Shown here: positions 3,121 through 32,485 of the stretch, in pieces
How positions within the stretch are numbered: position 1 is the first letter of the stretch
Layout: each line of letters begins with the position of its first letter
DNA from: a virus
IMG/VR virus record: IMGVR_UViG_3300026521_000559
Coordinates: 1-36,161 of that record
Reading direction: 5' to 3' (one strand)
DNA: 36,161 bases
Position numbers and translations under genes: made by a program
The notes under the pieces: model-generated
What the model saw: only the letters and a program-made list of their open reading frames with translations
Told to the model about the DNA's origin: nothing
Database searches by the model: none

Positions 3121-3135
3121 AAAGGAACCAAATTG
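3121..3135 (+). promoter_or_regulatory. SD that sets a TTG start for the homing endonuclease
   Basis: AAAGGAA at 3121-3127 lies 5 nt upstream of TTG at 3133. No ATG or GTG is in frame at a suitable distance, and the first zinc-repeat starts about eight residues later, so the TTG is the likely start. Confidence 0.6.
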
Positions 3136-15858: not shown

Positions 15859-17871
15859 ATGGAATTTACTAAAATAAATACTTTTCCAATAGTAGAGGAA
15901 TCCGTTTTTGAAGGAGATTTAATATGCGAAGTAGAGGTAGATGTTGCTGATGATCAAGTGGTACAATACGAACTTCAAAGTTCTTCTTCGGAATATTTTT
16001 CAATTCTTGAAAATAAAATTTATATTACCACCGAAGGAGTACAAGCAATAAACGAAGATTACCCAGAAGATATTTCAAAAGAAATAACTTCTCTGGTATT
16101 TTCGGTAATTGCTATTTCAAATGGTGAATCTATTTCTCAGACAGTTACAGTACCAGTAACCAGAATTATTGATAATCCTCCATATATTACTAACCATTAT
16201 GAAACTCATCTTTATACGGATGATCTTTATCCGGGTATACTGGTATCAAAATTATTTACAATTTATAATGCTTATTGTAATATATTGGGAGAGGCTTCTT
16301 CTTATTTTGAATTAGAAGCTATTCCTGATGATGGAAGTAATAATTTTACCATAAAACTAAACGATACCGGAGTAAATTATTTTACAAATTTTAATTTTGA
16401 TGAAGTAGATACAGAAATAATAGATTCGAAAATTGTTTATAAATTCGAAATTAATTTAGAATTTGTAGATGTTACGAATTCCAAAAGTACCTTATTAACC
16501 ATTTCCTCTTTAATATTTAAAGGTTCTTCCGATACTAGTATTCCTGTAAAAAATAATTTGGAATTACAGGCCGAATCTTTAGCGGAAAAAATTAGCGAAA
16601 TTGTTTCCGAACAGGAAAATATTTTAAATAAAAATAATTTTGATATAGAAAAATTTAAAGAAGATATTAAAAATTTATTAGTTTCTACTCGAAATTCTAA
16701 AAATAATTTTTTAGAATTACAAAATATTATAAATAACATATTTCTATTATTAAAAGAATCGATGAATATTCAAAACGAAAAATTAAATATAGTATCTACT
16801 ATAAATAATGATAGTTATGAGATAATCTATAACTTAATTGGGGATTTTTTAGAAAACGATTATTCCTCAGATAAGGCTGAATTATTTAACGATATTTCTA
16901 ATAATAAATCATTATTATTATCGAATACTTTTACCAATACCGCTATGGATACTTTTTTAATAAATAGAATAAATAAAGAATTTTCTTTAAGATTTGAGAA
17001 TTATTCTCAAAGTATTCAAAGTTATTTAATTGGATTTAGATCTTTAATAAATTCTAATATTATTTCACCATTTACTACGAAGCTAAATGAATTAGCAAGT
17101 GGATTAAATAATTTATTTTCTGAAACGGCTACTATCGGAAATAAGGCATACGAAGCAAATTCGAGAGCACTTAATGCAGATAATAATATTAGCTATTTGG
17201 ATAATCGTCTTCAAACTTTAGAATCTTTTACATTGGAGAACTGGGGAACCACCAGTGGTTGGAAATTTTCAGATGAAATCCTAAAATATGCTGGGGACGA
17301 TATAATTTCGGTTTCTTCTTCAATGGCGACTATCAGACACGAAAACAAAATTGCTTTAGAAACAGAAACTGGTTTTGTTTATTGGGATGGTGAAATTTTA
17401 GAATTAGATAATAATGATGGGGATGATACGACGGTAAAAGCAGATTATTTTACTGGTACAGCTACTTCAGCCAAATATGCCGATGTCGCGGAATATTATA
17501 AAAAAGAAAAAAACCCAAATTATAAATACGAGTCTGGGACAATAGTTTATATAAATAGAAACAAACCATCGATGGATTTCGAAGTGACGGAAGACTCTTT
17601 GTTTAATTGTTATTGTGGAGTAATTACTACTAGTCCAGGATTTATTTTAAATAGTGATAAATCAGAAGATGAGAATTATATCAATATTGCTTTAGTTGGT
17701 AGAGTACCAGTAAAAATTACCGGAGTTGTTAAAAAAGGAATGTTTTTATACCCAAGTGAAAAAAATCCCAATATAGCCGAAGGATCTTATGACGAAAATA
17801 GATCTAATATAATAGGAATTGCTTTAGAAAATAGTAATGGTAAAGACATAGTCCTTTGTAAAGTTAAATAG
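15859..17871 (+). CDS. Tail fibre-like protein with cadherin-like N-terminus
   Basis: 670 aa. Residues 1-105 resemble a cadherin-type beta domain (FEGDLICEVEVDVADDQ; SILENKIYITTEGVQAI). A second beta domain follows to about 215, then a long helical/coiled-coil stalk (about 230-460). The C-terminus (about 470-670) has the arrangement seen in phage fibre tips: GWKFSDEIL, SAKYADVAEYYKKE, then a 'Y..GTIVYI' strand and GRVPVKITGVVKKGMFL. The Asp-X-Ala-Glu-Tyr / GRVP pairing is common to fibre proteins of large marine phages. It is the last clear virion gene; 47 nt later the radical SAM operon begins. It is a candidate substrate for that operon, but this is inference. Confidence 0.7.
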   Translation: MEFTKINTFPIVEESVFEGDLICEVEVDVADDQVVQYELQSSSSEYFSILENKIYITTEGVQAINEDYPEDISKEITSLVFSVIAISNGESISQTVTVPVTRIIDNPPYITNHYETHLYTDDLYPGILVSKLFTIYNAYCNILGEASSYFELEAIPDDGSNNFTIKLNDTGVNYFTNFNFDEVDTEIIDSKIVYKFEINLEFVDVTNSKSTLLTISSLIFKGSSDTSIPVKNNLELQAESLAEKISEIVSEQENILNKNNFDIEKFKEDIKNLLVSTRNSKNNFLELQNIINNIFLLLKESMNIQNEKLNIVSTINNDSYEIIYNLIGDFLENDYSSDKAELFNDISNNKSLLLSNTFTNTAMDTFLINRINKEFSLRFENYSQSIQSYLIGFRSLINSNIISPFTTKLNELASGLNNLFSETATIGNKAYEANSRALNADNNISYLDNRLQTLESFTLENWGTTSGWKFSDEILKYAGDDIISVSSSMATIRHENKIALETETGFVYWDGEILELDNNDGDDTTVKADYFTGTATSAKYADVAEYYKKEKNPNYKYESGTIVYINRNKPSMDFEVTEDSLFNCYCGVITTSPGFILNSDKSEDENYINIALVGRVPVKITGVVKKGMFLYPSEKNPNIAEGSYDENRSNIIGIALENSNGKDIVLCKVK

Positions 17872-17918: not shown

Positions 17919-19676
17919 ATGATAAAAACAATAACGGATACTGTGATAGATTGTAGAAATTTATTGCAAAATACGACTACAAATTTACCAGAAGATTTAA
18001 TAAATGAATTAAATAGAATTTTTAATATTTTTGATAAGAGTTCTTCGCCTTCCGAAGAGTTATCTAACTCTTCGGAATATAATTTAATTACAAAGTTGTA
18101 TAAATTAAATGTATTGTTAACTAGATTAACTACAGAAAAAAAATTAAATAACATTTTTTTAAAATCGGTGGATAGAATGCTTCCGATAATAAACGAATCG
18201 ATTCGTTTATTATCATTAAATTATTTTCAAAATTTATATAACCTATCTACCGAGGCAGTTGAAAATAAATTAAAAAGTTTAGATCATTACGAGAAAATAA
18301 TAAATAATGATAAGGAACTAAATAAACTTTATAGAAACATGAGAAGTAAATATAAAAACAAAGACTTAATCACAAAAAGAGAATACTTTTTCAACGATGA
18401 AACCAAACCAAACGAGGATTCGTTTCATATAGTATTTCAAATAAATAAAAATTGTAATTTTAAATGTACTTATTGTTATGAAGGATTAGATAAAGTTACC
18501 GAAATTTTAGATATTAAAGATATCCCAAATATTGTTTTGGGTTTAAAAATATTTCAAGATCAGTTAAAAAAAACTAGTACTAAATATAAATTTTCGTTTA
18601 GTATTTTGGGAGGCGAACCAACAATTCTTCCAAAAAAATTAACTCATGCCTTAACAAAAGAATTAATGGATAAGTTAGAATTAACTTATATTATTTTAAT
18701 TACGAATAATTATTCAGCCGAGAAAACAAATAATTTTTTTCATCCGGAATTTCCAAAGGAAAAAATTAAAATACAAATATCATACGACGGTGGAAAAATT
18801 CAAAATGATTATAGAAAAGATATGTCTGGAAAAGGTACCTTATTATCAGGTAAACGAGAAATAATAAAATTGTTAGAAATATCCGATCCAAAAGTAAGAA
18901 TAGCTTTGAAAGCCACTTTACCTATGGAAGCAATAAAAGACTTAAAAAGTGTGATTTTAGATTATGTCGAATTTGAAAATCTTTTCAATACTCATAATAA
19001 TACTAGAAATTTTTCGTACTATCCAACTTTTGATACTACTTCTATTTTAATGTATAATTTAAGAATGGAAAGTTTATCTGGAAATGAATCACAAAAACAA
19101 AAGCTTCTTTCGGATATACACGAAAGTTTTTCATTTTTATTGGATTTTGAACTAAGTCGTTTAAGTAGTGGTAAAAAAGCATTTACAAGATGGTTTAGGG
19201 AAATAAGCTACACTGCTAATAAAACTCAATGTAGTGCGGGAAAATCCTTATTTGGATTGGATCAAAATGGTGACGGAAGATATTGCCATAGAACCGAATT
19301 TGGGGAAACTCATACCAATATTAAATTCCCATATGCTAAGAATCAATTAAATTCTTTGCTTTATGGTAATATAAAGGATTTAAATTTTTACAAAAAATTT
19401 GATAAAACTAAAAAAATCTTGGAACATACGGAAACCAAAAATTTTAGTCTATGTGAAAGTTGTATGACTCTAACGTGTGTTAAATGTCCTATGGTAAATA
19501 TTTCTCCTGATAGAGTATTGGATACGACCACTTCGTCCGATCTTTATAAAGATATGTATTCTCATGGGTTAACTCTATCATGCGAAATAAATAATATTAT
19601 TAGTAATTATTTATTTATTTTTACACAAATTGTATATAACAATGGAAAAAAAGAAAAGGAAAATTATGGGAATTGA
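17919..19676 (+). CDS. Radical SAM/SPASM enzyme, probable peptide maturase
   Basis: 585 aa, with GTAAAGGAATAATATATG. The radical SAM cluster motif is C179-x3-C183-x2-C186 (NCNFKCTYC), followed by ILGGEPT, the GGE motif that contacts SAM. The N-terminal 170 residues are an extra helical domain, which in peptide maturases often binds a leader peptide. The C-terminus carries SPASM-type cysteines: CSAGKSLFGLDQNGDGRYC, then CESCMTLTCVKCP, enough for auxiliary 4Fe-4S clusters. SPASM enzymes of this length commonly form thioether or carbon-carbon crosslinks in ribosomal peptides. The next gene overlaps by 11 nt and encodes a Cys-rich tail, so it is the natural substrate candidate. The family is certain; the reaction is inferred. 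Confidence 0.85.
   Translation: MIKTITDTVIDCRNLLQNTTTNLPEDLINELNRIFNIFDKSSSPSEELSNSSEYNLITKLYKLNVLLTRLTTEKKLNNIFLKSVDRMLPIINESIRLLSLNYFQNLYNLSTEAVENKLKSLDHYEKIINNDKELNKLYRNMRSKYKNKDLITKREYFFNDETKPNEDSFHIVFQINKNCNFKCTYCYEGLDKVTEILDIKDIPNIVLGLKIFQDQLKKTSTKYKFSFSILGGEPTILPKKLTHALTKELMDKLELTYIILITNNYSAEKTNNFFHPEFPKEKIKIQISYDGGKIQNDYRKDMSGKGTLLSGKREIIKLLEISDPKVRIALKATLPMEAIKDLKSVILDYVEFENLFNTHNNTRNFSYYPTFDTTSILMYNLRMESLSGNESQKQKLLSDIHESFSFLLDFELSRLSSGKKAFTRWFREISYTANKTQCSAGKSLFGLDQNGDGRYCHRTEFGETHTNIKFPYAKNQLNSLLYGNIKDLNFYKKFDKTKKILEHTETKNFSLCESCMTLTCVKCPMVNISPDRVLDTTTSSDLYKDMYSHGLTLSCEINNIISNYLFIFTQIVYNNGKKEKENYGN
18050..18077 (+). repeat. Stem-loop with 13-bp perfect arms in the rSAM gene start
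   Basis: TTCCGAAGAGTTA (18050-18062) and TAACTCTTCGGAA (18065-18077) are separated by 2 nt. It lies inside codons 44-53 of the SPASM gene. Confidence 0.85.
18185..18214 (+). repeat. Perfect 30-nt palindrome in the rSAM gene
   Basis: 15-bp arms without a spacer (GATAATAAACGAATC / GATTCGTTTATTATC), 107 nt after the previous stem-loop and in the same N-terminal coding part. Confidence 0.88.
19656..19668 (+). promoter_or_regulatory. SD choosing ATG 19666 for the Cys-rich protein
   Basis: AAGGA at 19656-19660 lies 5 nt before ATG 19666. A longer in-frame start at 19630 has no SD and would only add 12 basic residues that overlap the upstream gene, so 19666 is preferred. Confidence 0.65.
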
Positions 19677-20244
19677 AACGGAAATTGATAATCAAGTATG
19701 TCGGTTTAATACCACCTTATTCGAAGGAGGGGATAGTATTTATACTACCGGCGGTACAGAAAATACCGAAGATAATGATCCTCCCGAAATGGTAGAAGAT
19801 GTGGATGAAACGTGTCCAAGTTATAAAGCAATGTGTACTGAAAATTTAGCCGACGATATCGAAGATATATTTTCAGGTATATCTTCAAATGGTCCAGAAA
19901 TAGAAGAAAATCATTTAAAAAGCATATATGATATGTCCAAAACTTTATCCCAAGATAGAAATTTTTTAGAAATAGATGAAAGTTTAGTCGAAATTTCAGT
20001 TGGTGAAATAGTAGATCATGACGATTTCAATACTTTAAAAAATTGGACCGATTCTATAACGGCCGCTGAATTAAAGGTCGAATATAGACCAGCCGGAACA
20101 TTAATAGATATGGACGGATTTGTTGAATTAAAAGAAAAATTTAAAGAAATTGCAACATTATGTAATACAAATTCCCAGTGCGAATGTAATTCAATTTGTA
20201 CTTGTAATACCGTATGTACATGTAATTGCGATTCAAATTACTAA
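19666..20244 (+). CDS. Cys-rich protein with CxCN repeats; candidate rSAM-modified (RiPP-like) precursor
   Basis: 192 aa, starting inside the end of the SPASM gene (11-nt overlap). Residues 1-150 are very acidic and might act as leader or carrier. They contain only three cysteines (C12, C50, C57). The last 27 residues hold eight cysteines (C166, 172, 174, 178, 180, 184, 186, 188) in a repeat CECNSI-CTCNTV-CTCNCD and end DSNY. A long acidic leader plus a short Cys-repeat C-terminus next to a SPASM enzyme is the layout of thioether- or crosslink-forming peptide systems. Alternatives: a metal-binding (metallothionein-like) tail, a disulfide-rich virion tip, or a substrate of another rSAM in the operon. 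No protease or exporter gene is visible nearby. Confidence 0.72.
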   Translation: MGIETEIDNQVCRFNTTLFEGGDSIYTTGGTENTEDNDPPEMVEDVDETCPSYKAMCTENLADDIEDIFSGISSNGPEIEENHLKSIYDMSKTLSQDRNFLEIDESLVEISVGEIVDHDDFNTLKNWTDSITAAELKVEYRPAGTLIDMDGFVELKEKFKEIATLCNTNSQCECNSICTCNTVCTCNCDSNY

Positions 20245-20258
20245 ATTAAGGATTTGTA

Positions 20259-20888
20259 ATGCAGGTAGCTATAATAAATAAAATAAAAGACAACTATATA
20301 ATTACCGATATATTGGAAGTTAATTCCGGAGATTTAAAATTTATAGATCTTTGGGCAAAAATTGAAGATAATGTAAAACAATTTTATAATTTTTTAAAAA
20401 ATAGTTATAAAAATATTTATATCGAAGAATCGGCTGTTTTAAAAAAAGAGATTCTTAAAAATGATTTTTTATATGATAAATATAAAAGACCTTCTAAATC
20501 GTCGGATAATGAAGCAACTGTAAGAACAGAGTTGGAAATTAAAAAAATAAAATTTTTAAAAGAACTCGATAACTTTTTACTAAATAATATTTCAAATATA
20601 GGTTTTTTAAAATATATTCAATATTTAAATTATTTTAATTATTTTGCTTCAAATGGTATATTTATTACCGAAGAAAATAAAGAGGAAAAATATATTGAGA
20701 TATTGGATTTGGATGACGAATCAGCAATTGAAAAATTAGAATTATATTTAACGATTCAGGAAGAATTAGAACCATTTTTAAAATTTAATGAAACTATTTC
20801 AAACTTGAAGGAAGAAATTATATATATGGATGAAGATGAATTTGAGTCAGAACGATTAAAATACAATGAATCTTTAAAATTAACGTAA
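20259..20888 (+). CDS. Hypothetical helical protein, 209 aa
   Basis: 209 aa, with AAGGATTTGTAATG; the stop overlaps the next start (TAATG). The N-terminus (1-25) is a small beta unit (VAIINKIKDNYIITDILEV); the remainder is helical and acidic at the end (EEIIYMDEDEFESERLKY). No cysteines, no known motif. The order SPASM enzyme - Cys-rich peptide - this gene suggests a partner such as a recognition or scaffold protein, or a fibre-assembly factor; neither is shown by sequence. Function unknown. Confidence 0.55.
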   Translation: MQVAIINKIKDNYIITDILEVNSGDLKFIDLWAKIEDNVKQFYNFLKNSYKNIYIEESAVLKKEILKNDFLYDKYKRPSKSSDNEATVRTELEIKKIKFLKELDNFLLNNISNIGFLKYIQYLNYFNYFASNGIFITEENKEEKYIEILDLDDESAIEKLELYLTIQEELEPFLKFNETISNLKEEIIYMDEDEFESERLKYNESLKLT

Positions 20889-21727
20889 TGCAATTATTAC
20901 AAGAAATTAAATTCGGATCTCGTAAAAGAGGTTCGAATACTATTCCTGCGAAAATTTTTAGAACGTTTGAAAACTATGAAATTATTACAGATTTAACGAA
21001 TTTAAATCCATCGGAGAAATTTATTAATTTTTATAGAATACCAAAGAAAGAAATTTTTAATGATAATTTATTATTTACATATTCTCAATCAAAAGAGGAA
21101 TTAATACAGAGAGGATTATTTACAAATGCTTTAAATTTATCTTTTTTAAAATATAATTCCAAAATAGTTTCCAATGGTTTTTATTATTCTAAATATTATA
21201 ATATGTTATATTTTCCAACTTATTTTTATTCGATCCATGATATAAATATGGTATATAATATTAAAAAATCGTATAAATATGGTTTTTATAATAGATTGGA
21301 ATGTCCAAACGATAGGGAAATATTAAAAAAATATTCCCCGGAGGAATTATTAATTTTTGGAAATTTTGGAAATGAAAAAAAATTCGATAGTCTTACCGAC
21401 CAAGGACTTTTTTTTAATAGTTTTGAAACTTTAATTGTTAATAACGAACCAAACGATTCGGTTTCGAATACCTTATTAGAAGGTATTTTTCTAAAGAAAA
21501 AAATAAAAATGGAAAATAATTTTAATATAGCTAATGATAATAAGGCATTGTTAGAAGCTCGTTTTAGATTAGGATATGATAATTTATTCAAAGCTCTTGA
21601 TAATTTAAATATTTATTGTTGGTATGATTTAACAGAAGATAATTTTAACGACCGTTTGGATTATATAAATAAATTGATTAAACAATCAGTGACCTTTGAT
21701 CAATTTTTACAAAAAGGATTTTTATGA
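20888..21727 (+). CDS. Unknown protein, possibly glycosyltransferase-related, 279 aa
   Basis: 279 aa, 1-nt overlap upstream and 4-nt overlap downstream. Residues about 60-205 alternate short strands and helices with many aromatic residues. The stretch with SFETLIVNNEPND, then VSNTLLEGIFLKKK (about 175-205), resembles the acidic 'sndp..ntllEg...kk' nucleotide-sugar motif of GT-B glycosyltransferases, and a comparable segment occurs in the 596-aa protein two genes later (FQFDCSPRFIAECQFYNKKV). The N-terminal domain expected in a full GT-B enzyme is not obvious, so the call is weak. Confidence 0.4.
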   Translation: MQLLQEIKFGSRKRGSNTIPAKIFRTFENYEIITDLTNLNPSEKFINFYRIPKKEIFNDNLLFTYSQSKEELIQRGLFTNALNLSFLKYNSKIVSNGFYYSKYYNMLYFPTYFYSIHDINMVYNIKKSYKYGFYNRLECPNDREILKKYSPEELLIFGNFGNEKKFDSLTDQGLFFNSFETLIVNNEPNDSVSNTLLEGIFLKKKIKMENNFNIANDNKALLEARFRLGYDNLFKALDNLNIYCWYDLTEDNFNDRLDYINKLIKQSVTFDQFLQKGFL

Positions 21728-22416
21728 AAATAGAAACAGTATTTTATTTAACAAAAGAGTGCAATTTTAAATGTACATATTGTTATAAAGGGGATCAGAA
21801 AAATAAAGAATTGCTTTCAGAAAAACGAATTGATATAATATTAAAAGAATTTTTAAAAAATTCGCATAATATCGATACTTTTTATTTACGGGTTCGTGGG
21901 GGCGAAATTAGTATTAACGAAGAAACAATCCCATTAATAAAAAAACTTATGGATTTTTTAGAAAAATTATCCTCGCGAGGAATAAAGGTATTATTTGAAT
22001 TTAGTACAAATTTTAAAAATAAAAATTACTTTAAAAAATTAACAAAACTATTTTATAATTACAATATACCAATTAAAACTGATTTTAGTATACATTTTGA
22101 ATACTATAATCATAAAAATAAATATAAAATAATAAATAAAATATTATATATTATAAAACTTTATCCTAAGGCTCTCTATAGAATCGTCTTTGATAATTTT
22201 GATGAAGCTCAACACGAACTATTAAAACTATCTTTTATTGATATTGGAATACCTTTAAAATTTTCAAATACCTATGGCTTATTTTTAGAAAAATCTCGTG
22301 AAAAATATGATTTAAAAATATTAGTGGATAATAAATTATTACCACTTGTTAACGATAAAAGAATATCTATTAAAAAATTCTTAAAATTAACCAATTCGGA
22401 AATATTATGGAAATAA
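21724..22416 (+). CDS. Compact radical SAM protein without SPASM domain
   Basis: 230 aa, with AAAAGGATTTTTATG and an ATGA overlap. C13-x3-C17-x2-C20 (ECNFKCTYC) is followed by RVRGGEIS near residue 58 and EFSTNFKNK, the strand/loop features of the radical SAM barrel. It is shorter than a typical SPASM enzyme and I see no further cysteines, so there is no auxiliary cluster. The last 60 residues are unlike a SPASM tail. It might work on a small molecule or on the product of its neighbours, or be a partial barrel that needs a partner. Overlap with the next gene is 10 nt. Confidence 0.75.
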   Translation: MKIETVFYLTKECNFKCTYCYKGDQKNKELLSEKRIDIILKEFLKNSHNIDTFYLRVRGGEISINEETIPLIKKLMDFLEKLSSRGIKVLFEFSTNFKNKNYFKKLTKLFYNYNIPIKTDFSIHFEYYNHKNKYKIINKILYIIKLYPKALYRIVFDNFDEAQHELLKLSFIDIGIPLKFSNTYGLFLEKSREKYDLKILVDNKLLPLVNDKRISIKKFLKLTNSEILWK

Positions 22417-24197
22417 TTCTTACCTATTGTCCAAGTGATTTTGAAAAAAATAGAATCTGTGGGCACACTTTCGAAGTAATGGATTATTATTTATTGTTTA
22501 CTCAACTTGGGTATAAGGCAAAAATTCTTATTCAGGATAGTATAGAGAAAAATCGGTTGTATAAGGCATGGGAGGATAAATACGATAATGAATATTTGGA
22601 TAAAAACTATAAGATGGATATTATTTTTAAAAAAAGTAAGATAATAAAAGCAGATATTTTAATTTTCGTAGATGGGTTATATAATTATTATATAGATACT
22701 TATATTTTAAAATATAAGTATCTATATATATTTCGATGTAATACGAAAACAAATTATAAAATTCTACTAAAAAATAAAAATGTTTTCTTATTTCAAGATT
22801 ATAGAGTTTATCAGGATTATCATAATTATACAAATGTTATAAACTATGTAAAAAAAATAAAGTTCGATAATTATAAAAAATATTCAAAAACCAAAACAAA
22901 TAAAACTCTAGTATATATAAATTCGAATTTAAGAAAATTAGAAACTCCTTTACCAAAAAATCGTAATTATATATATTTATCTGGAACTAATTTATCAAAA
23001 GATTATATAAAATCCTTGAGTATAGGATTTAAAGATCTTATATATGCTCCAGTAGAAAACCTTTTTGAAAAATTTGACGAATTTTTATATACTAGTACTA
23101 AATTTCAATTTGATTGTAGTCCTAGATTTATCGCGGAATGTCAATTTTATAATAAAAAAGTATCCTTTAATTTCGATATTGAAAAATATTTTGAAATCGA
23201 TACTGGATTAAAGTGGAGATGGTACGATACTATAAATAATTTTAATAATTTAGTATTAAATAAAGAGGATTTAATTATAAAATATTTAAAACGGATATGT
23301 GTCCCAAGTGCTCCAAGTACCTTTCAAGCGGTTAGTAATGAACATACTTCTTATCATATAGAATTTCCAATAACATATAAATGTAATTTCAATTGTGAAT
23401 ATTGTTATGCTAAGGAAGAAATATCTTCAATAAATAAAGATATTTCTTTAAGTTCGATAATATCATCTATTAACCATTTAAAAACTTTTTCGAAAAATTG
23501 TTCGGCTAACATTAAAAAATATCTTTATTTATTGGGAGGCGAGCCAACAATACATAATAATTTTAAAATAATTTTAAAATTATTATTACCCCTGGACGAT
23601 TCTTTTAAAATTCATTTGGTGACAAATTCTAAAAATATTTTAAAATATAAAAATGAATTATTAAAATTTAAAAATTTAAAAATTACGTTATCTTTTCATC
23701 CAACTCAAATGACCACCACTGATTTCTTAAAAATCCTCGAAAAATCTTTTGTCGTTTTTAATAATAAAATATTAATCGAACCAAGCATTCCCGATATAAT
23801 GGATAGTAAAAAATATAAAATGGATTTACAAAGAATATTTAATTTTTGTAAAAAAATAAATATTCCAATAGATTATAATATTATTAATAGTACGGAATGG
23901 TATTCCGCCGAAAAAGAAACAAAATCTTTTAATATTTTTAATAATTTAGAAAGCAATAATGATAAATTTATATTAAATAATATTGTATATTCTTATTCCG
24001 AAATAGTAAAAAATAAGTTGGATAATTTTTTTGGTTGGTATTGTTATTCGAAAGTTTTTAAAGCTACTGATAAAGGTTTAAAGCATGCATGTACTAACCA
24101 AGATATAAAAGACTTAATCGATAAACCAGTAATATGTCCATTTAATAAATGTGAATGTGAATATTATTTAAAAGGTAAAAAAATAAATGACAGATAA
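22407..24197 (+). CDS. Fusion: N-terminal glycosyltransferase-like domain + C-terminal radical SAM/SPASM
   Basis: 596 aa. Residues 1-290 look like a GT-B-type domain: MEIILTYCPSDFEKN.. near an ICGHTFEVMDYYLLF helix, LIFVDGLYNYY, a middle strand YINSNLRKLE, and FDCSPRFIAECQFYNKKV near 235-260. A linker with PSAPSTFQAVSNEHTS leads to a radical SAM part: C326-x3-C330-x2-C333 (KCNFNCEYCYA), LYLLGGEPT near 374, LVTNSKNI, ITLSFHPTQM, and a C-terminal set FGWYCYSKVF, HACTNQDI, CPFNKCECEY. The whole C-terminal half is paralogous to the 314-aa protein at 30194. Fusing the two domains suggests that sugar transfer and radical chemistry act on one substrate. A 40-nt palindrome lies in the GT part. Confidence 0.72.
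   Translation: MEIILTYCPSDFEKNRICGHTFEVMDYYLLFTQLGYKAKILIQDSIEKNRLYKAWEDKYDNEYLDKNYKMDIIFKKSKIIKADILIFVDGLYNYYIDTYILKYKYLYIFRCNTKTNYKILLKNKNVFLFQDYRVYQDYHNYTNVINYVKKIKFDNYKKYSKTKTNKTLVYINSNLRKLETPLPKNRNYIYLSGTNLSKDYIKSLSIGFKDLIYAPVENLFEKFDEFLYTSTKFQFDCSPRFIAECQFYNKKVSFNFDIEKYFEIDTGLKWRWYDTINNFNNLVLNKEDLIIKYLKRICVPSAPSTFQAVSNEHTSYHIEFPITYKCNFNCEYCYAKEEISSINKDISLSSIISSINHLKTFSKNCSANIKKYLYLLGGEPTIHNNFKIILKLLLPLDDSFKIHLVTNSKNILKYKNELLKFKNLKITLSFHPTQMTTTDFLKILEKSFVVFNNKILIEPSIPDIMDSKKYKMDLQRIFNFCKKINIPIDYNIINSTEWYSAEKETKSFNIFNNLESNNDKFILNNIVYSYSEIVKNKLDNFFGWYCYSKVFKATDKGLKHACTNQDIKDLIDKPVICPFNKCECEYYLKGKKINDR
22689..22728 (+). repeat. Perfect 40-nt palindrome inside the GT-rSAM fusion gene
   Basis: 20-bp arms without a spacer, centred at 22708/22709 (TTTT|AAAA). 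Read in the coding frame it gives a tyrosine-rich segment around YIDTYILKYKYLY, and the opposite strand spells the same peptide. Confidence 0.92.
23416..23448 (+). repeat. Stem-loop with 12-bp perfect arms beside the CxxxCxxC motif
   Basis: AAGAAATATCTT (23416-23427) and AAGATATTTCTT (23437-23448) flank a 9-nt loop, just after the Fe-S cysteine codons of the fusion gene. With the other internal palindromes it points to a class of intragenic inverted repeats. Confidence 0.7.
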
Positions 24198-25137
24198 AGA
24201 ATGGTATCGCAATCTAATTAAAGAAAAATTTAAACCTCGTATAGTAGTATTGGATTTAAACGATCCGTGCTATTTAAATTGTAATTTTTGTCCAAAAAAT
24301 AGTATTCATCATAAGTTCATGACTAATTCAAATAATTTAGAAAAAATATTTTATATTATTGATTATTTTATTGAACTTGGTGTTCAATCGTTCGAAATTA
24401 CTCCAACCATAGGTGATTCCATAAATAATAAAAATATAATAGAAATTTTAGACTATATTAAAAGTAAGAATAAAAAAGCATTTATGTTTACATCCTTATT
24501 GGGAAAAGACTCCTCGGATATTATTAAAAAAATTCCTCGGATAATCGATAGGCCAGATTTTTATTTGGTTATAAGTATATATGGATTAACGAAAAAAACT
24601 TTTTTTCAAAAGACAAATTCCAACGATTTTTTAAATTTTAAAAAAAATTTATTTTTCTTATTGGATAATTTTAAAGAATTATCTAGTTCTCTGGATAATT
24701 CTTTTTTAATTCTTCGTAATCGTTTTAATAATTCTGTTTCTTTAGATTATAAATTATTCGAAAGTTTAGAAAAAAAATATTCTAATTCCAGAATATTATT
24801 CGAAAGCTATCATCCAGATATATACAAAACGAATAATAAATACAATAATATATGTTGTAATTTTTTAATTAATTTTGGATGTAATTTAAAAGGCGAGGTA
24901 CGATTTTGCAATTACGCTTATGGAGCGCCAATAATAGGAAATATTTTTGATGGTACATTTAATCAAAATGATTTAAATAAATATTTTGAAAAATATTTAA
25001 ATAACGAATTCTGTAAAAATTGCATACTTTACGAAGAAGTAGAAAATAAACATGATATTATAAACGAAAGTTATAAATTTAAATCTTTTAAAAACGAAGG
25101 TATAGATTTTAATATAGGATTAACAAAGGAAATTTAA
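24187..25137 (+). CDS. Radical SAM protein of the 'TPTxGD' type
   Basis: 316 aa, 11-nt overlap with the fusion gene, 1-nt overlap downstream. C28-x3-C32-x2-C35 (PCYLNCNFCPK). Where other rSAM proteins here have GGE, it has FEITPTIGD, a variant seen in some radical SAM families of surface-glycan clusters. C-terminal cysteines CC (NICCNFLINFGC), VRFCNYAYG and FCKNCILYEE could bind an auxiliary cluster (SPASM-like). The whole protein is paralogous to the C-terminal part of the next gene (561 aa), which shares the TPTxGD and CKNC elements. Reaction unknown. Confidence 0.78.
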   Translation: MTDKEWYRNLIKEKFKPRIVVLDLNDPCYLNCNFCPKNSIHHKFMTNSNNLEKIFYIIDYFIELGVQSFEITPTIGDSINNKNIIEILDYIKSKNKKAFMFTSLLGKDSSDIIKKIPRIIDRPDFYLVISIYGLTKKTFFQKTNSNDFLNFKKNLFFLLDNFKELSSSLDNSFLILRNRFNNSVSLDYKLFESLEKKYSNSRILFESYHPDIYKTNNKYNNICCNFLINFGCNLKGEVRFCNYAYGAPIIGNIFDGTFNQNDLNKYFEKYLNNEFCKNCILYEEVENKHDIINESYKFKSFKNEGIDFNIGLTKEI

Positions 25138-26822
25138 TGGAATTAAATAGTAAAAACACTTCTTTATTTTTCGTAATTGAAAATAAACATAATTTAATAA
25201 TAGAAACCAAGAGAAGTATTTATCATATTATAGAAAATCAAAGTTGGATAAAAACCATAAAAATATATTTGGTTACCCCAACTAATTTATTTTTACCGAA
25301 AAATATTAAAAAAGAATTTTTAGATATTTACGAAAATATAGAATTTATAGAAAAAGATATAGTGAGGTATTCGGATCATGTTTTTTTCAACATGATTTAT
25401 GGGTGTTATTTAGCCGAGGAAAAAATAAAAAGTAATTATTTAATATATCTAGATTGTGATATGTATTTGGTAAATAATTTCCCTTCTTCTTTTAAAGGAG
25501 AATTAATATTAGAATCCGAAGGTTATTATAATGAAGAATCGGATAAATGGCTAATGACTAAAAAAAAGTGGTTAAATATGTTAAAAATAAAAAATTCGGA
25601 AAATATAATATACACAAATACCGAATTTATAATAACCAATACCGAATTAAAAATATTTTCTAAGTGGTTAAATACTTTTGAAAATTTATATCCAAAACTA
25701 AAAAAAATAGAAAATAAATATCCAAAAATAGGTTTTGATATTTCGTGTATGGAAGAAACCAGCTTCGAAATTATGGTTTTAAATAATCATTTTGATCGAA
25801 TTTTATATCTTCCTAATCTTGTTGCAAGATTAGGGAACCCTACAGCGATTCCAGATACACCTAAAGCAAAAAAAGAAATTTTATTTATTAGCCAACATTT
25901 AGAAAAAATAGACGATATTTTATTTGATTATACTAGCGATTTTAAACAGAATACTATAACTATGGAATTAATATATTCGTGTGAATTTGATTGTTTCTTT
26001 TGCGAAAAACCAAATTTGGAAAAACCCATAATTTTAGAATTAGATAAATTTAAAAAGTATTTGGACAAATTAATTATAAATGGTATAACTACTATAGATT
26101 TAACCCCAACTAAAGGAGATATTTTAAATATTCCAAATTTAGTAGAATATTTAAAAATTTTAGAAAATTCGGATATCAATAATTATTACTTCTATACTTC
26201 AATAGCTACCAATAGAAAACTATCTTTAGATAATGAATACGATAAGGAATTAATCAATTTTATTAATACTAGTAAAAAAATATATATTTATTATTCATGT
26301 TATCTTGATAACGATTTCCAAACTTTTTATAAAATAGTTCGAAAAGATAAATCCGTTTATGATCTTAATATCCTAAACAGTAAGTTTTTATTAAAAAATA
26401 TTAATAAAAATAAAATAACATTTATAGATAGGGTAAATAAGTATCCATTTAGGCTTTTAATAAAAAATAATCATTTGGCTCGTTTAGCTCATATTAAACA
26501 GATTCCGATAATTTGTGAAGATGATGATTTAAAACAAAATCGGGATAATTTTTTAAGACATACTGCTTTTTGTGAACAATTTTTATGTTGCAGTACTTTA
26601 AAAATTAATGGAGATTTAGTATATTGTAATTATGGAAAATCGTATTACGATGGAGTAGTTGAACATATTTCGACATTTACAAATAATAATTTATTAACCA
26701 AGGAATTAATTAATAACGATCTATGTAAAAATTGTTTATATAAAATGGAATCTGGTATCTCGGAACTTATCTGGAATAAAGAATCATTTCTTATCAATCA
26801 TTCAAAGGAAACATCATGTTAG
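25137..26822 (+). CDS. Fusion: GT-A glycosyltransferase + 'TPTxGD' radical SAM
   Basis: 561 aa. Residues 1-255 are a GT-A-like nucleotide-sugar transferase: a first strand LFFVIENKHNL, the DxD metal site YLDCDMYLV with D106 and D108, FIITNTELKIFSKWL, and FDISCMEETSFEIMV, the acceptor-loop region. Residues about 270-561 are a radical SAM domain: C282-x3-C286-x2-C289 (SCEFDCFFCEK), IDLTPTKGD, then FCEQFLCCSTLKINGDLVYC and LCKNCLYKME. This half is paralogous to the free-standing 316-aa protein just upstream. It is the second GT-rSAM fusion in the operon but with a different GT fold from the first. Overlaps the next gene by 7 nt. Confidence 0.75.
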   Translation: MELNSKNTSLFFVIENKHNLIIETKRSIYHIIENQSWIKTIKIYLVTPTNLFLPKNIKKEFLDIYENIEFIEKDIVRYSDHVFFNMIYGCYLAEEKIKSNYLIYLDCDMYLVNNFPSSFKGELILESEGYYNEESDKWLMTKKKWLNMLKIKNSENIIYTNTEFIITNTELKIFSKWLNTFENLYPKLKKIENKYPKIGFDISCMEETSFEIMVLNNHFDRILYLPNLVARLGNPTAIPDTPKAKKEILFISQHLEKIDDILFDYTSDFKQNTITMELIYSCEFDCFFCEKPNLEKPIILELDKFKKYLDKLIINGITTIDLTPTKGDILNIPNLVEYLKILENSDINNYYFYTSIATNRKLSLDNEYDKELINFINTSKKIYIYYSCYLDNDFQTFYKIVRKDKSVYDLNILNSKFLLKNINKNKITFIDRVNKYPFRLLIKNNHLARLAHIKQIPIICEDDDLKQNRDNFLRHTAFCEQFLCCSTLKINGDLVYCNYGKSYYDGVVEHISTFTNNNLLTKELINNDLCKNCLYKMESGISELIWNKESFLINHSKETSC

Positions 26823-27844
26823 AAAAATCGGAAAAAATATTTATTGATATAGATTCTGAACTTAGAGAAAGTACTTTACTTTTAGAATTTCAGTTTCATG
26901 ATGTATGTAATATAAAATGTTCGTATTGTAAATTAAATTCGGGGAAAAATATACTTGAAAAAAAGTATTTAGATAATTTAATATTATTTATTAACGATTA
27001 CGAATTACAAAATAAATTTACAAATATTGAAATTATGATTATGGGTGGCGAAACATTTCTAAATTTACCAATTTTAACAGAGTTATTCGATACGATACAT
27101 AACTTAAATAATATTATTCCAGTGTCACAGATACTTTTACTAAGTAATTTTATATTACCAACCGATTTGATAACGGAGCAAATGAGATATTTAAAATCAT
27201 TTGGTATTCCAATAGATTTGGAAATTACCCTCCATGCACAAGAATATTCTTATACTCAATTAAGATTATTCTTAAAAAACTATAAATTATTTAGAAATGA
27301 AATTTCGAGTATTAACGTACTCGAAGGAAATATAAAATATACGAAAGAATCTAAATTTTTAACACTTTATAAAATAATTATAAATACTTTTTTAAAAGAT
27401 AAAAAAATAATAAATAATGTTTATATATGTGATATAAATAAAATAAAAAAGGATGGTTTATCGTTTAAAGAAGAATCTAATATATTATCTAACTACGGGA
27501 TAATTATGTCGAATCTTGGAAATTTATTTATGGAATATAATTCTGATAACTCTAGAAATTCGGAACCAATTACTTTGGGAAAATTAAATAAATTTATTGG
27601 AGATTCAAATTATAGTTGCGAATGCAACGTTAAGAATAATTTAGTTCTTGATGCTACTGGACATTTAAGATGGTGTGGAAATTTTGACCAATTTCAGGAA
27701 GATGTTATACCAAATATAAAAATGATTCCAGAAGATTTTAAAAAAATATATTCTTATTTTTTTACAGATTGTTCTATAAGATGCCCATATTCATTGTGTA
27801 TGGGAGGAGTATTTAATCAATTAAAAATAAAGGAAAAAAAATGA
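26816..27844 (+). CDS. Radical SAM/SPASM-like protein, 342 aa
   Basis: 342 aa, with AAAGGAAACATCATG. C31-x3-C35-x2-C38 (VCNIKCSYCK), IMIMGGETF near 78 and ILLLSNFILP are the core features. The C-terminus has CECNVKNNLVLDATGHLRWC and then DCSIRCPYSLCMGG, which is a SPASM-type auxiliary-cluster arrangement ending like the CxxCxxxxxC of that domain. It does not belong to either of the two paralogous pairs. Translationally coupled on both sides (7 and 4 nt). Confidence 0.8.
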   Translation: MLEKSEKIFIDIDSELRESTLLLEFQFHDVCNIKCSYCKLNSGKNILEKKYLDNLILFINDYELQNKFTNIEIMIMGGETFLNLPILTELFDTIHNLNNIIPVSQILLLSNFILPTDLITEQMRYLKSFGIPIDLEITLHAQEYSYTQLRLFLKNYKLFRNEISSINVLEGNIKYTKESKFLTLYKIIINTFLKDKKIINNVYICDINKIKKDGLSFKEESNILSNYGIIMSNLGNLFMEYNSDNSRNSEPITLGKLNKFIGDSNYSCECNVKNNLVLDATGHLRWCGNFDQFQEDVIPNIKMIPEDFKKIYSYFFTDCSIRCPYSLCMGGVFNQLKIKEKK

Positions 27845-28800
27845 AAAAATATAATAAAACATTACTCAATATATTATCAAATAAAATATTTGATTATCTA
27901 ATAACCAATCTTCCAAAAGCATATCCGGAATTAAATGAACCAGACGTAACAATAAAAATTGATTATATAAAGGATAAAATAGTTCCAAAATTTATAGAAT
28001 ATGGGAATGATATGGATAATCCAGAAATGAAATTATCTAAAGTTTTCCTATGGGATAAATTAGAAATAATTAATAACGGAAAATTGGAAAATTGGTATTT
28101 TAAAGACTCTTTCTTAAATAATATTATTTTTAATACCGAGTACCATGAATACAGAGAATACAGAGAATACATAAATGATTTTAATTTTGCAGAAACGGAA
28201 TCGTTTGTTATTTTAAAAAAATATCCAAAAATAGCCATTAAAAACATTTTAGCATGTTATCCAAAAAATAAAACTTTTGAACATCCAAATTATTTTTTTG
28301 AGTTGGATAATATTTTTTATAAAGTGAGTAAACCAGTCTTTAGTAATATTAGTTGTTTTAAAGATGTCGTATTATTTGGAAATTCTCGGTATAATGATTC
28401 AGGATATAGATTAATTTTATTGGTAACCAACTTAACGGAAGTAGAAAATATAAAAAAATTTTTCAATAAAAATAATTTCATGTTTAAATACGTTACTGTA
28501 ATCTTAGAAAAGGATTTTTTAAATTTACCACTTTCTGAAAAAATGGATATTTTTCAGAAAAAAGATATAACTATCGAAAATATTAAAAAATATGATTTTA
28601 GAATAAATCAACTTAATTTTCATCCGAAATTAGATTATTTTTACGATAATAAAAAGGAGGTTTTTAAGATTATGATAGAAGATATAAAAAAGATATTACT
28701 AAATAATAAACTTAATAAACATAATAAACAAGTAAGTGAATATACACCTGATATAAATACCAAAAATATGGATTACCAAAATGAAATCTATTCAAAATAA
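27841..28800 (+). CDS. Hypothetical protein, 319 aa
   Basis: 319 aa, with AAAGGAAAAAAAATG. I do not recognise it. The N-terminal half is helical; about 170-245 looks like an alpha/beta unit (DVVLFGNSRYNDSGYRLILL, then FKYVTVILEKDF). A short tandem repeat near residue 104 encodes EYREYREY (three 9-nt units at 28147-28173). The C-terminus is Lys/Asn-rich and overlaps the aminotransferase gene by 20 nt. It may bind a nucleotide or a small substrate, but there is no motif to support a function. Confidence 0.5.
   Translation: MKKYNKTLLNILSNKIFDYLITNLPKAYPELNEPDVTIKIDYIKDKIVPKFIEYGNDMDNPEMKLSKVFLWDKLEIINNGKLENWYFKDSFLNNIIFNTEYHEYREYREYINDFNFAETESFVILKKYPKIAIKNILACYPKNKTFEHPNYFFELDNIFYKVSKPVFSNISCFKDVVLFGNSRYNDSGYRLILLVTNLTEVENIKKFFNKNNFMFKYVTVILEKDFLNLPLSEKMDIFQKKDITIENIKKYDFRINQLNFHPKLDYFYDNKKEVFKIMIEDIKKILLNNKLNKHNKQVSEYTPDINTKNMDYQNEIYSK
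28147..28173 (+). repeat. Tandem 9-nt repeat (GAATACAGA), 3 units
   Basis: Units at 28147, 28156 and 28165 (the last ends ATA). Being a multiple of three it inserts Glu-Tyr-Arg steps without a frameshift. Confidence 0.75.
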
Positions 28801-29413
28801 TAATCATTTTTTAAATACGTTTGAAAAACGTATTTCCGAAGTTACTGGAGCACCGTACGTGGTTCTTACGGATAGCTGTAGTAACGCTATTTTTATAACT
28901 ATATGGTATCTAAAAAAAATAAAAAAAATAAAATTTCCAAATAAAATTATTATTCCAAATAGAACGTATATAAGTGTTCCGAATGCTATTTTTCGCAACG
29001 GCTTAAAACCAGTATTTAAAAAAATAAAATGGTTTTCTAGATATCGGATTGGAACTTTGCCTATTTGGGATTGTGCAGTAGGATTTGAAAAAAATATGTA
29101 TATAAAGAAACAATATATGTGTTTAAGTTTTCAACAAAAAAAAGCTATTGGTATTGGAAAAGGTGGAGCAATTTTATTAGATAATAAAAAAGATTATTTA
29201 TTTTTAAAAAGACTTGTTCATGACGGAAGAGATTCTGGAATACCAGTATCCAAGGATACCAATATTATATATGGATTCCATATGAATATGACTCCTGATC
29301 AAGCGGCTAAAGGAATTTTATTATTAAATCAGTATGTATTTGCCGATCGAGATCTTGGTTCATATAAAAATTATCCAAAATTAAGGAAAATTTGTGAAAA
29401 AAATTACAAATAA
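28781..29413 (+). CDS. DegT/DnrJ/EryC1-type PLP aminotransferase, shortened
   Basis: 210 aa, overlapping the previous gene by 20 nt and without a clear SD. DegT-family features: PYVVLTDSCSNAIF for the SGT loop, KIIIPNRTYISVPNAIFRNG for the P..T.....ai...G strand, PIWDCAVGF for the EDaA(h)-type Asp that binds PLP, SFQQKKAIGIGKGGAILL with K121 as the Schiff-base lysine, and RLVHDGRD. These enzymes aminate keto sugars. Family members are about 370 aa; here the C-terminal 150 residues (small domain) are missing. The following 266-aa frame is not that domain. It may be a natural minimal form or a remnant that is still in frame. A 10-bp stem-loop lies at 28813-28835. Confidence 0.75.
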   Translation: MKSIQNNNHFLNTFEKRISEVTGAPYVVLTDSCSNAIFITIWYLKKIKKIKFPNKIIIPNRTYISVPNAIFRNGLKPVFKKIKWFSRYRIGTLPIWDCAVGFEKNMYIKKQYMCLSFQQKKAIGIGKGGAILLDNKKDYLFLKRLVHDGRDSGIPVSKDTNIIYGFHMNMTPDQAAKGILLLNQYVFADRDLGSYKNYPKLRKICEKNYK

Positions 29414-30194
29414 ATCTTTTGATTCTTTACTTAATTTTATAAAACCATATAAAAAACAATTGGATAATATAAAAAATTTGGATATTATTTTAGGACAATC
29501 TGAGAATTGGTATTTATACCATAATCCAAAAAATAAACCGTATTGTTTTTACAGTAGTATAAATAATAAATTATTAAAGGTTATTTTTTTAAAAGAATTG
29601 GAAAAAAATAACTTTTCTAATTCTTTTGATATTTTAAAATTAAAAAAATATTTAAAAACTTTAGAACAACAAGATAAAATAAAATTTATATCGGATGATA
29701 TATTTTTTTTAGAATGTCCGAAATACCCAAAATTAAATATAACCATAAAGGAATACATTGTTTTAATTAATTCGATTAAAAAAAAATTAAAAAAATTTGA
29801 TATTTATTTTGATATAGATTTAAATATTATCGAAATCGATCCAAAGCAATTAAATATTTCTATCCATGAGAACGATCTTTTAATTTTGGATTATAAAATG
29901 TTGCAATTTTATTCGCCGGAAAAATTAATGGATGGAAAATTATTTGAATATAATATAAAAGATGAATTTATTATATATTTTTATTATTTTAAAAATGAAT
30001 TTAAACTCGAATTATTTGATGTTGGTACTACCGAAACTATCCCATTTCAGGAAATATCCGAATTATTAAATAAAAGATTAATTAAAATTTTAAATACCTT
30101 TAAATATAAAAATATTTTAAAATGTTTTAAATTATTGGCAAATGTATTAAGCACATTTAATTATAATAACCATAATATTAAAGGAGTTGATTAA
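29394..30194 (+). CDS. Hypothetical protein, 266 aa (GTG start)
   Basis: 266 aa. GTG at 29394 with AAGGAAAA about 6 nt upstream sets the start, overlapping the aminotransferase gene by 20 nt. It is Lys/Ile/Phe-rich with a helical N-terminus (1-90), a mixed middle (125-185) and a beta-containing C-terminal part (FIIYFYYFKNEFKLELFDV). There are no cysteine pairs or catalytic motifs. I do not recognise it. It is translated together with the rSAM gene that follows (1-nt overlap). A role as a substrate-binding or acceptor-handling protein is only a guess. Confidence 0.5.
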   Translation: MKKITNKSFDSLLNFIKPYKKQLDNIKNLDIILGQSENWYLYHNPKNKPYCFYSSINNKLLKVIFLKELEKNNFSNSFDILKLKKYLKTLEQQDKIKFISDDIFFLECPKYPKLNITIKEYIVLINSIKKKLKKFDIYFDIDLNIIEIDPKQLNISIHENDLLILDYKMLQFYSPEKLMDGKLFEYNIKDEFIIYFYYFKNEFKLELFDVGTTETIPFQEISELLNKRLIKILNTFKYKNILKCFKLLANVLSTFNYNNHNIKGVD

Positions 30195-31138
30195 TGAAAG
30201 CTTTCCAAGGAATCAATCATAAGAAAAACAGATTATATATTCATTGGGATATAACTACCAAATGTAATTATAAATGTAATTATTGTTACGCGGAAAATGA
30301 ATATTCTAAAAAAGAAGAATGGAATTTGGAATCGAATGAAAAAAATATTAAAAGTATTATAACTTCATTAAGATTAAGCGCTCTTCCTATTTTTTTAGGA
30401 TTGCTTGGAGGAGAACCAACTCAATCAAAATATTATTTTAAAATTTTAGAAGAAATTGAAAATAATATTTTACCAAAACATAAAGATAATAGATTATATA
30501 TTACTACAAATCTTAGTAAAGATTTGGATTATTGGAAAGAACATCCAAAAATAAAAAATACTTTTATATTGTGTAGTTTTCATCCGGAATATTTTAAAAT
30601 AAATACAATTAATAAAATTAAGAAATATGTCGAAAAATTAGAATATTTGAATAAATATTTTAGAGTAAAAGTCAATATAATGTTAGATCCAAAATATGAT
30701 AATATTACTCAGGAATGGTTAAAAATTTTACCAAATATTTCCAAAGACATATTAATACACCCACATATTATTTATCCAGATGGAAGTCCACATAACGACT
30801 TACAGATCATGTATGAAACATCTTTTGATAAATATCAAGAAATATATAAATACATGTGTAAAGAATATGAATATATTATAAATGATAAAAAAGAACATTT
30901 AAATGATATAGAAGTTTTTTCTAAGAACTTAAATAAGTTTAAAGGTTGGAAATGTTATCAAAATAATTATGAAATATCTTTTAATGGTTTGGTTAGTTCT
31001 TCCTGTTTTCCAGGAACAGTTTCTTTAGGAACTAACCCAATGTATTTTAAAAAAATTAAAGAGGTACTATCTAAAACATGTCCTCATAATTTTTGTAACT
31101 GCGACGGATTACTAAAATGTCAAAAAATATTAAACTAA
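30194..31138 (+). CDS. Radical SAM protein, 314 aa, paralogue of the fusion's C-terminal half
   Basis: 314 aa, with AAAGGAGTTGATTAATG. C24-x3-C28-x2-C31 (KCNYKCNYCYA), FLGLLGGEPTQ, LYITTNLSKD, FILCSFHPEYF and the end FKGWKCYQNNYE, SSSCFPGT, CPHNFCNCDG. The matching elements of the 596-aa fusion (CNFNCEYCYA, LYLLGGEPT, LSFHPTQM, FGWYCY, CPFNKCEC) occur in the same order, so the two are paralogous modules, here without the glycosyltransferase. Overlaps the GT gene by 22 nt. Confidence 0.8.
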   Translation: MKAFQGINHKKNRLYIHWDITTKCNYKCNYCYAENEYSKKEEWNLESNEKNIKSIITSLRLSALPIFLGLLGGEPTQSKYYFKILEEIENNILPKHKDNRLYITTNLSKDLDYWKEHPKIKNTFILCSFHPEYFKINTINKIKKYVEKLEYLNKYFRVKVNIMLDPKYDNITQEWLKILPNISKDILIHPHIIYPDGSPHNDLQIMYETSFDKYQEIYKYMCKEYEYIINDKKEHLNDIEVFSKNLNKFKGWKCYQNNYEISFNGLVSSSCFPGTVSLGTNPMYFKKIKEVLSKTCPHNFCNCDGLLKCQKILN

Positions 31139-31737
31139 GTATATTAATACCAACTCATGATAGACCAGAACAATTACAGAATTGTTTGTTGAGTATCTGT
31201 AAAGCAGATATACAAATACCTTACGAAATTATTATTAATTGTGATGATAATTCTATTAAAGATATAAACTTTAATAAATATAAATTACCAATTAAGATTT
31301 ATAATAATAAATTTTTTAATTGGGGACAAGTATATAATTTTTTATATAAAAAATCAAATGGAAACTATATTTATTTCTTAGAGGATGATGATTTATTATT
31401 AACATCATTTGATTTTCTCGATTATGATTTTGACTATTATTTTGGAATGTATTATCCAAACAAAAGAGAAAATAATACTCTTAAAAAATTTAGAAATTCT
31501 TTTAAAAGAATATGGAGTTTTACACATACTAAATTATTTTTTAATTATAATATTCCAGAAAAATTTATTCATTTCCAGTTGGGCCAGATAATTATTAAAA
31601 AAGAAATTATTAAAAAATTTCCAAAAACCGATAATAAATATAATGATTATTATTTATTTGCTAAAAATCCAGGAACTATTAAATACATAAATAAACTATT
31701 CTATAAACAAGGAGAATCCCATTACAATGTTTCATAA
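31117..31737 (+). CDS. GT2-family (GT-A) glycosyltransferase
   Basis: 206 aa. KLSILIPTHDRPEQLQNCLL is the opening strand and nucleotide site of the GT2 fold, EIIINCDDNS is the second acidic motif, and YIYFLEDDDLLL carries the metal-binding acidic cluster. It is short for the family (about 250-300), so it may lack an acceptor helix, but the catalytic half is intact. It starts 22 nt inside the end of the rSAM gene. It probably transfers a sugar in the same product pathway. Confidence 0.8.
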   Translation: MSKNIKLSILIPTHDRPEQLQNCLLSICKADIQIPYEIIINCDDNSIKDINFNKYKLPIKIYNNKFFNWGQVYNFLYKKSNGNYIYFLEDDDLLLTSFDFLDYDFDYYFGMYYPNKRENNTLKKFRNSFKRIWSFTHTKLFFNYNIPEKFIHFQLGQIIIKKEIIKKFPKTDNKYNDYYLFAKNPGTIKYINKLFYKQGESHYNVS

Positions 31738-32485
31738 AACAATACAAGAAATATATCAAAAATTAACTATAAAAAAATTACTTCAATATAGTATAGATAA
31801 CAATCTAAAACATATACCAAGTGCTCTCAGTCAATTCAAATATCTTAAATACTTATTACCAAAACTCGATTATGATAATACGAATATAGTAATAGGCAAG
31901 CCCTTTGGTTCTCAGGCTTATTATATGATCTGGAAAGAACTTGGATTAATAGCTAATCAAAAATTATCATATGGTGTTAAACATGACGAAATAGAATTCG
32001 TTAATTACGGTGAAGAAACGCTTGGAAACGCCTTGGGTATAGGATCTGGAATATCGTTAGGAAGTCCCGATAAACTAACCTATGTTAACCTAAGTGATGG
32101 TGCTTTACAGATGGGTCCAACCTTAGAAGCTATACAATTCATAGGAAAGCATCAATTAAATATGATAATTACCGTTGATTTTAATGGTATGCAATTAACG
32201 GATAGTATTCAAAATATTTCTGGAATCAATAGTTTAAATATCGAATCGATATTTAAACTATATAATATAGAAACTTATCTTATAGATACCACAGTTTTAA
32301 ATATTCATGAAATAAATTTAATTATAAATAGCGTTTTACTAAATCAAAAAGAAACTAAGAAACCAACGACCTTGATATTTAAAACTATTAAGGGTCATGG
32401 AGTTAAAGAAATGGAAGAAGATCCAATATTTTGGCACTATAAAGAATTAAAAAATATTGGTGATATAACTATCGTAAATAACTAA
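31727..32485 (+). CDS. Transketolase N-terminal (ThDP-binding) subunit
   Basis: 252 aa, with AAGGAGAATCCCATTACAATG. GEETLGNALGIGSGISLG, then VNLSDGALQMGPTLEAIQF and IITVDFNGMQL form the ThDP/metal motif (DG...14..N form). IFKTIKGHGVKEMEEDP and FWHYKEL match the transketolase KG.GV..ME....WH segment. It carries only the PP domain; the partner with the Pyr domain is the 152-aa gene at 33641. Split transketolases of this kind in sugar clusters move a two-carbon unit onto a sugar. Last gene of the overlapping operon. Confidence 0.85.
   Translation: MFHKTIQEIYQKLTIKKLLQYSIDNNLKHIPSALSQFKYLKYLLPKLDYDNTNIVIGKPFGSQAYYMIWKELGLIANQKLSYGVKHDEIEFVNYGEETLGNALGIGSGISLGSPDKLTYVNLSDGALQMGPTLEAIQFIGKHQLNMIITVDFNGMQLTDSIQNISGINSLNIESIFKLYNIETYLIDTTVLNIHEINLIINSVLLNQKETKKPTTLIFKTIKGHGVKEMEEDPIFWHYKELKNIGDITIVNN

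Follow-up and report, generated by a model that had tools for sequence, protein, structure and literature searches.

A cysteine-repeat protein of phage tail-fibre type and its adjoining radical SAM/SPASM enzyme: a conserved pair with a putative role in tail-tip maturation

When a gene for a cysteine-rich protein begins inside the end of a radical SAM (rSAM) enzyme gene, the layout recalls the systems that crosslink small peptides, and the question is what such a pair would do in a phage. We have examined this question for a virus record of 36 kb that contains tail and portal genes (IMG/VR record IMGVR_UViG_3300026521_000559, positions 1 to 36,161, the whole of which is here called the window); its portal-like protein is a distant relative of that of the Bacillus jumbo phages AR9 and PBS1 (23.7% identity). 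A sequence-only reading had described an acidic protein of 192 amino acids (aa) with 8 cysteines in 27 residues, arranged as CxCN repeats, whose gene starts within the end of a SPASM enzyme gene, and the translation agrees with this description. The gene lies at 19666–20244 on the + strand and overlaps the end of the rSAM gene at 17919–19676 by 11 nt; an in-frame TTG at 19630 is an alternative start. The C-terminus of the protein is CNTNSQCECNSICTCNTVCTCNCDSNY, with the repeat units CECNSI, CTCNTV and CTCNC and with cysteines at residues 166, 172, 174, 178, 180, 184, 186 and 188. For this block (residues 166–192; 20161–20241, + strand), the binomial probability of 8 cysteines in 27 residues is ~1e-9 per position at the window Cys frequency of 1.3%, and a scan of all other window ORFs gave at most 6 Cys per 27 residues; conservation, considered below, is a better test of whether the block is real. 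The protein is strongly acidic (pI 4.05; 42 D+E vs 11 K+R), but acidity did not hold up as a trait of its family, in which the median pI is 5.6 and the range 4.05–9.1. In the predicted structure the Cys tail is disordered, and a structure search with the protein gave no confident match to a known fold. As sole query against viral contigs the 192-aa protein found no relative, and its relatives were reached only by way of the rSAM enzyme and then by alignments.

The enzyme (17919–19676, + strand; 585 aa) was identified from a match to PF04055, an alignment of 30 members and an AF2 model. It consists of an all-helical N-terminal extension (residues ~1–145), a CxxxCxxC motif at 179–186 and SPASM cysteines between 438 and 555. 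Invariant in the 30-member alignment were C179, C183, C186, GGEPT, C438, C456, C512, C515, C520, C523 and C555, and the SPASM auxiliary-cluster set is conserved, including C456 with G451. Judged from its motifs and from the model, the protein is both a radical SAM enzyme (CxxxCxxC, TIM-barrel core) and a SPASM protein. The model (pLDDT 78.6) matched rSAM structures with Z up to 25.4, and the nearest PDB relative was CteB, both by profile (6.7e-24) and by structure (5why, Z 25.4); next among the structural matches came anSME, ChlB, TigE and SuiB, which are mostly peptide or protein modifiers, with the scores of anSME and ChlB close to that of CteB. CteB is the maturase that forms thioethers on the Cys-rich SCIFF peptide, a ranthipeptide. 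The window resembles the SCIFF/CteB system in that a Cys-rich predicted substrate adjoins a SPASM enzyme whose closest solved relative is CteB itself. It differs in that the putative substrate is a tail-type protein of 192 aa with a helical domain rather than a peptide of ~45 aa, that the model of the enzyme N-terminus is helical throughout and shows no winged-helix RRE fold, and that the genes lie in a phage tail operon. An RRE is missing from many RiPP enzymes.

Family models were less informative, as the enzyme fell far below all NCBIfam equivalog cut-offs, so that its chemistry cannot be read from family membership. The best NCBIfam match was PapB of the ranthipeptides (NF047865; 44.5 bits vs a cut-off of 340), and the SCIFF maturase model TIGR03974 was absent from the matches. 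The PapA substrate has spaced CxxxD units, which are absent here. There was also a weak match to QhpD (TIGR03906; 36.8 bits vs 453), a known rSAM precedent for Cys crosslinking inside a full structural subunit, that of quinohemoprotein amine dehydrogenase (QHNDH); unlike the QhpD system, the window has no QHNDH subunit at this place.

With the 585-aa enzyme as query we obtained three other phage contigs (L009–L011), whose enzymes are 50–58% identical to it. These contigs share one gene order: a fibre gene of ~670 aa, the rSAM gene, a Cys-repeat protein gene, and genes for proteins of ~205 and ~280 aa. The corresponding window genes, all on the + strand, are those for a tail-fibre-type protein directly 5' of the module (15859–17871, 670 aa; phrog_6427, 1.1e-9, at its C-terminus), a conserved 3' partner of 209 aa (20259–20888; phrog_25260, 2.4e-9), and a 279-aa protein (20888–21727) that keeps its order and is similar in sequence in L009–L011 and had no family match in the profile databases, PHROG included. 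In several other loci, too, the large gene that precedes the module matched PHROGs 6427, 19602 ('tail fiber protein') or 22593. The Cys proteins of L009–L011 are 33–44% identical to that of the window and end in VCTCNC--(N/H)Y. When 34 proteins were aligned, the invariant or near-invariant columns, apart from Met1, were all Cys; the residue after Cys in the repeats is mostly Asn, Thr or Asp, and Tyr makes up 7.7% of the repeat.

Two other parts of the window may be described here. An island of sugar and rSAM genes extends from 21724 to 32485, in which the proteins at 22407–24194 and 25137–26819 appear to be fusions of a glycosyltransferase half with a radical-SAM half, near DegT-like, GT2, transketolase-N-like and epimerase genes. 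Within the structural gene cluster, the gene at 3133–4446 encodes a protein in which the DUF4379 treble-clef zinc finger is repeated and whose C-terminus resembles an endonuclease.

What kind of protein carries the Cys repeat became clearer from a scan for the Cys motif, which found phage proteins with the sequence CICNSDCACNxVCxCNxxCGCNYSDERLK, an rSAM gene adjoining wherever the flank was long enough. From the SD onward, the proteins of the CICNSDCACN type are Peptidase_S74, known as the endosialidase chaperone domain (PF13884; E 1e-6 to 3e-10), and this domain begins directly 3' of CNY (S190 in L056), at the position of the S74 cleavage site. The S74-bearing members matched virion and tail PHROGs. 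A profile built on the rSAMs of the S74 group gave 53 loci, and nearly all of the strong rSAM members are adjoined by a Cys-repeat gene, either of the CNSDCACN type or with CTCNCNY arrays. Among 57 relatives, 20 carry a full S74 domain, 15 a stub of 13 residues that retains the cleavage motif, and 21 end with the Cys block; one ends otherwise. The window protein belongs with the last type but one: it has no S74 domain by Pfam test, unlike the S74 phage fibres and appendages, and it ends at the point where the S74 domain of its relatives starts. Comparisons by hhalign of the window with the S74 family gave, as E-values of single comparisons, 2.9e-17 for the Cys proteins (spanning the helical domain and the repeat), 7.2e-33 for the rSAMs and 1.9e-12 for the third gene. 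By these sequence comparisons, all three genes of the window module belong to an S74-linked phage family. The proposal that the N-terminus of the window enzyme is a fusion of the small helical gene found upstream of the S74-group rSAM failed (hhalign E 0.42).

The S74 connection bears on several claims of the sequence-only reading. The region taken for a long acidic leader turns out to be a helical domain, conserved also in the S74-bearing relatives, and not a RiPP leader. Of the three roles that had been offered, a fibre-tip component is now the best supported, given the full S74 domains and stubs among the relatives, the tail-fibre genes upstream and the virion and tail PHROG matches. A structural family lacking a partner SAM enzyme had been named as an outcome that would speak against a modified product; the family does look structural, but the enzyme accompanies it. 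Neither a Cys repeat nor an rSAM partner is known from ordinary S74 proteins. The window protein belongs to a widespread phage family of tail-fibre type that seems not to have been described.

How specific is the pairing? We ran a family HMM made from 30 enzymes over the ORFs of the collected loci, counting as members those with at least 250 bits. Six window ORFs matched the rSAM family HMM, of which only 17919–19676 is a member (340 bits vs 21–48 for the others), and the window thus contains the pair as defined, a member adjoining a CxCN protein. Among 40 non-redundant members the next gene encodes a Cys-repeat protein in 29, 24 by a strict rule and five (L195, L170, L179, L171 and L010) that miss the strict rule alone and have a Cys-rich next gene by inspection. 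A Cys-repeat gene lies within ~3.6 kb of at least 38 of the 40, the clear exception being L183; in the group with CNCNYC repeats it is ~2.7–3.5 kb downstream of the rSAM gene, with other rSAM genes between. Unrelated rSAMs of the same loci had a Cys-rich next gene in 0 of 60 cases (Fisher 8e-13). As neighbouring loci are relatives of one another, these counts lack full independence. In the reverse direction, starting from the motif CNCNYCTC, an rSAM gene was found within 3 kb upstream in 25 of the 27 loci with sufficient upstream sequence. A scan with a mixed pattern, whose matches are mostly non-coding and which served as control, gave an rSAM in 5 of 93 loci, and in none of the five was the rSAM associated with a coding match to that Cys pattern. 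The human-gut phage MT835472 has an rSAM and no Cys-repeat neighbour.

Weak tblastn matches in E. coli phage proteins (E 0.1–0.5) were taken as chance, because the one region inspected adjoins ribonucleotide reductase genes and has no annotated rSAM. A genome scan for CN(S/T)DCACN gave 8 contigs, with the motif in an open frame in one and no rSAM adjoining, and hence no clear bacterial prophage copy. In a Mu/P2-like tail cluster (L035, 5716–7643; also L036), a CNQVCTC repeat protein containing CTCNQVCTCNQQ and a SPASM enzyme of a different rSAM subfamily lie in that order between the tail fibre and baseplate gene J; this forms a second instance of the pairing, which may be convergent. Two loci (L222, 4721–7282; L229, 7389–9443) have three or four paralogous CNCNY-repeat genes in tandem, which suggests tail-tip duplication and divergence. 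In another (L050, 2762–13343) there are ~8 consecutive Cys-rich ORFs with up to 57 Cys each, in CSCNSRT/CNTRT repeats, and no rSAM was recognised in the 14.7 kb examined around them.

The pair family includes cultured phages, namely the Campylobacter phages CP220, CPt10, CP21 and IBB_35: CPT_0184 is a member of the rSAM family and CPT_0180 of the Cys-repeat family. The Cys-repeat gene (L012, 5156–6718; L251, 5933–7537) is ~2.2 kb upstream of the rSAM gene, bears the annotation 'putative N-acetylneuraminate pyruvate lyase' in WX1 and CP21, and varies in its number of 7-aa units, from 6 in CP220 to 4 in WX1. The 11–12 rSAM proteins of CP220/CPt10 were termed highly unusual in 2010 and interpreted as metabolic, and CPT_0180 was described solely as a gene with 21-bp repeats (PMC2853527), whereas we find that these repeats code for CDCNYCT units and that both genes belong to the families described here. 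CPT_0180 is not among the CP220 virion proteins identified from gel bands in that report. In pelagimyophages, rSAM cassettes have been placed inside a tail-fibre 'host recognition cluster' (PMC7029224).

We suggest, with somewhat better than even confidence, that the window protein is a virion protein of tail-fibre or adhesin type and that a dedicated rSAM/SPASM enzyme matures its Cys-repeat tip, most likely through thioethers. The 192-aa protein would be the mature-length form, an N-terminal helical domain followed by the repeat as C-terminal tip. During assembly in the host cytoplasm, the enzyme would modify the repeat by SAM radical chemistry, most likely joining Cys sulphurs to carbons of nearby residues as thioether crosslinks, and the crosslinked repeat may form a rigid, reduction-proof tip. 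In the relatives, the S74 domain 3' of the repeat would act as an intramolecular chaperone that is removed by autoproteolysis after trimerisation; since S74 stands at its usual cleavage position, the cut would expose the Cys repeat as the C-terminal end of the trimer. The window lineage would have lost the S74 domain, its protein stopping at the same point. The sequence and model data establish the paired occurrence, the homology to S74-bearing phage proteins, the tail-fibre surroundings, the intact motifs of the enzyme and its structural kinship to enzymes that make thioethers on peptides; the repeat as substrate, the thioether chemistry, the place in the virion and the part played at the host-contact tip are inferred. 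That the Cys-repeat family stands nearly always beside its own rSAM suggests a chemical crosslinking, or hardening, of host-recognition tips.

Three other explanations were weighed. It is unlikely that the tip is left unmodified, its Cys repeat binding metal (Zn or Fe-S) or forming disulphides, and that the rSAM acts elsewhere, for example on a sugar of the island. Repeats so dense in Cys, with His replacing Asn in some members (CHSNCHSDC, L186), could bind metal, and the glycosyltransferase/rSAM island downstream holds several more rSAMs and sugar genes. Yet only one rSAM subfamily takes part in the pairing, the remaining rSAMs in these islands show no such link to the Cys protein, and the nearest enzymes act on peptides. 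We consider it rather improbable that the enzyme acts on the repeat by other means, such as epimerisation, C-C cyclophane formation, or the oxidation of a Cys, Asn, Thr or Tyr residue. All of these reactions are known among SPASM enzymes with a comparable fold, the scores of anSME and ChlB come near that of CteB, and Tyr is common in the repeat; on the other side stand the confinement of near-invariance to Cys in the 34 proteins and the rank of a Cys thioether enzyme, CteB, as top profile match. Finally, a secreted RiPP of ranthipeptide or SCIFF-like type, directed against competing phages or cells, would account for a Cys-rich precursor beside a CteB-like SPASM enzyme and for a weak match to a BFVD phage protein named 'SCIFF', but is very improbable, because S74 domains are frequent among the relatives and neither an ABC exporter (PF00005) nor a C39 protease (PF03412) was found in the window and the three related contigs, all of them possible fragments, and because proteins of 150–500 aa in a tail-fibre operon position do not resemble a small secreted peptide. 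The earlier suggestion of a thioether-peptide layout is supported by the conserved CxCN/SPASM pair and by the kinship to CteB; that of a secreted anti-competitor peptide is not supported.

Returning to the maturation of a tail tip by the rSAM enzyme, we put forward more tentatively, at a little under an even chance, that the window exemplifies a general class of virion maturation, in which a dedicated rSAM would lay C-S crosslinks along the Cys-repeat tip of a trimeric, S74-chaperoned adhesin with varying repeat number, and which would extend over many tailed phages, Campylobacter phages and those of varied metagenomes included. The spacing of ~2.2 kb between the Campylobacter genes, the intervening rSAM genes of the CNCNYC group, the absence of CPT_0180 from the listed CP220 virion proteins and the lack of a confident structural match for the window protein count against the tip-maturation reading. 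We found no paper that links rSAM enzymes to phage tail proteins or reports such a modification of the virion among the openly available papers that our search covered, which extended neither to bioRxiv nor to most subscription journals. If the proposal is correct, RiPP-type radical chemistry builds part of the host-contact apparatus of phages, at least one of the 11–12 rSAM genes in each Campylobacter phage genome gains a testable function, and rSAM enzymology gains a large natural set of repeat substrates, some of them from cultured phages.
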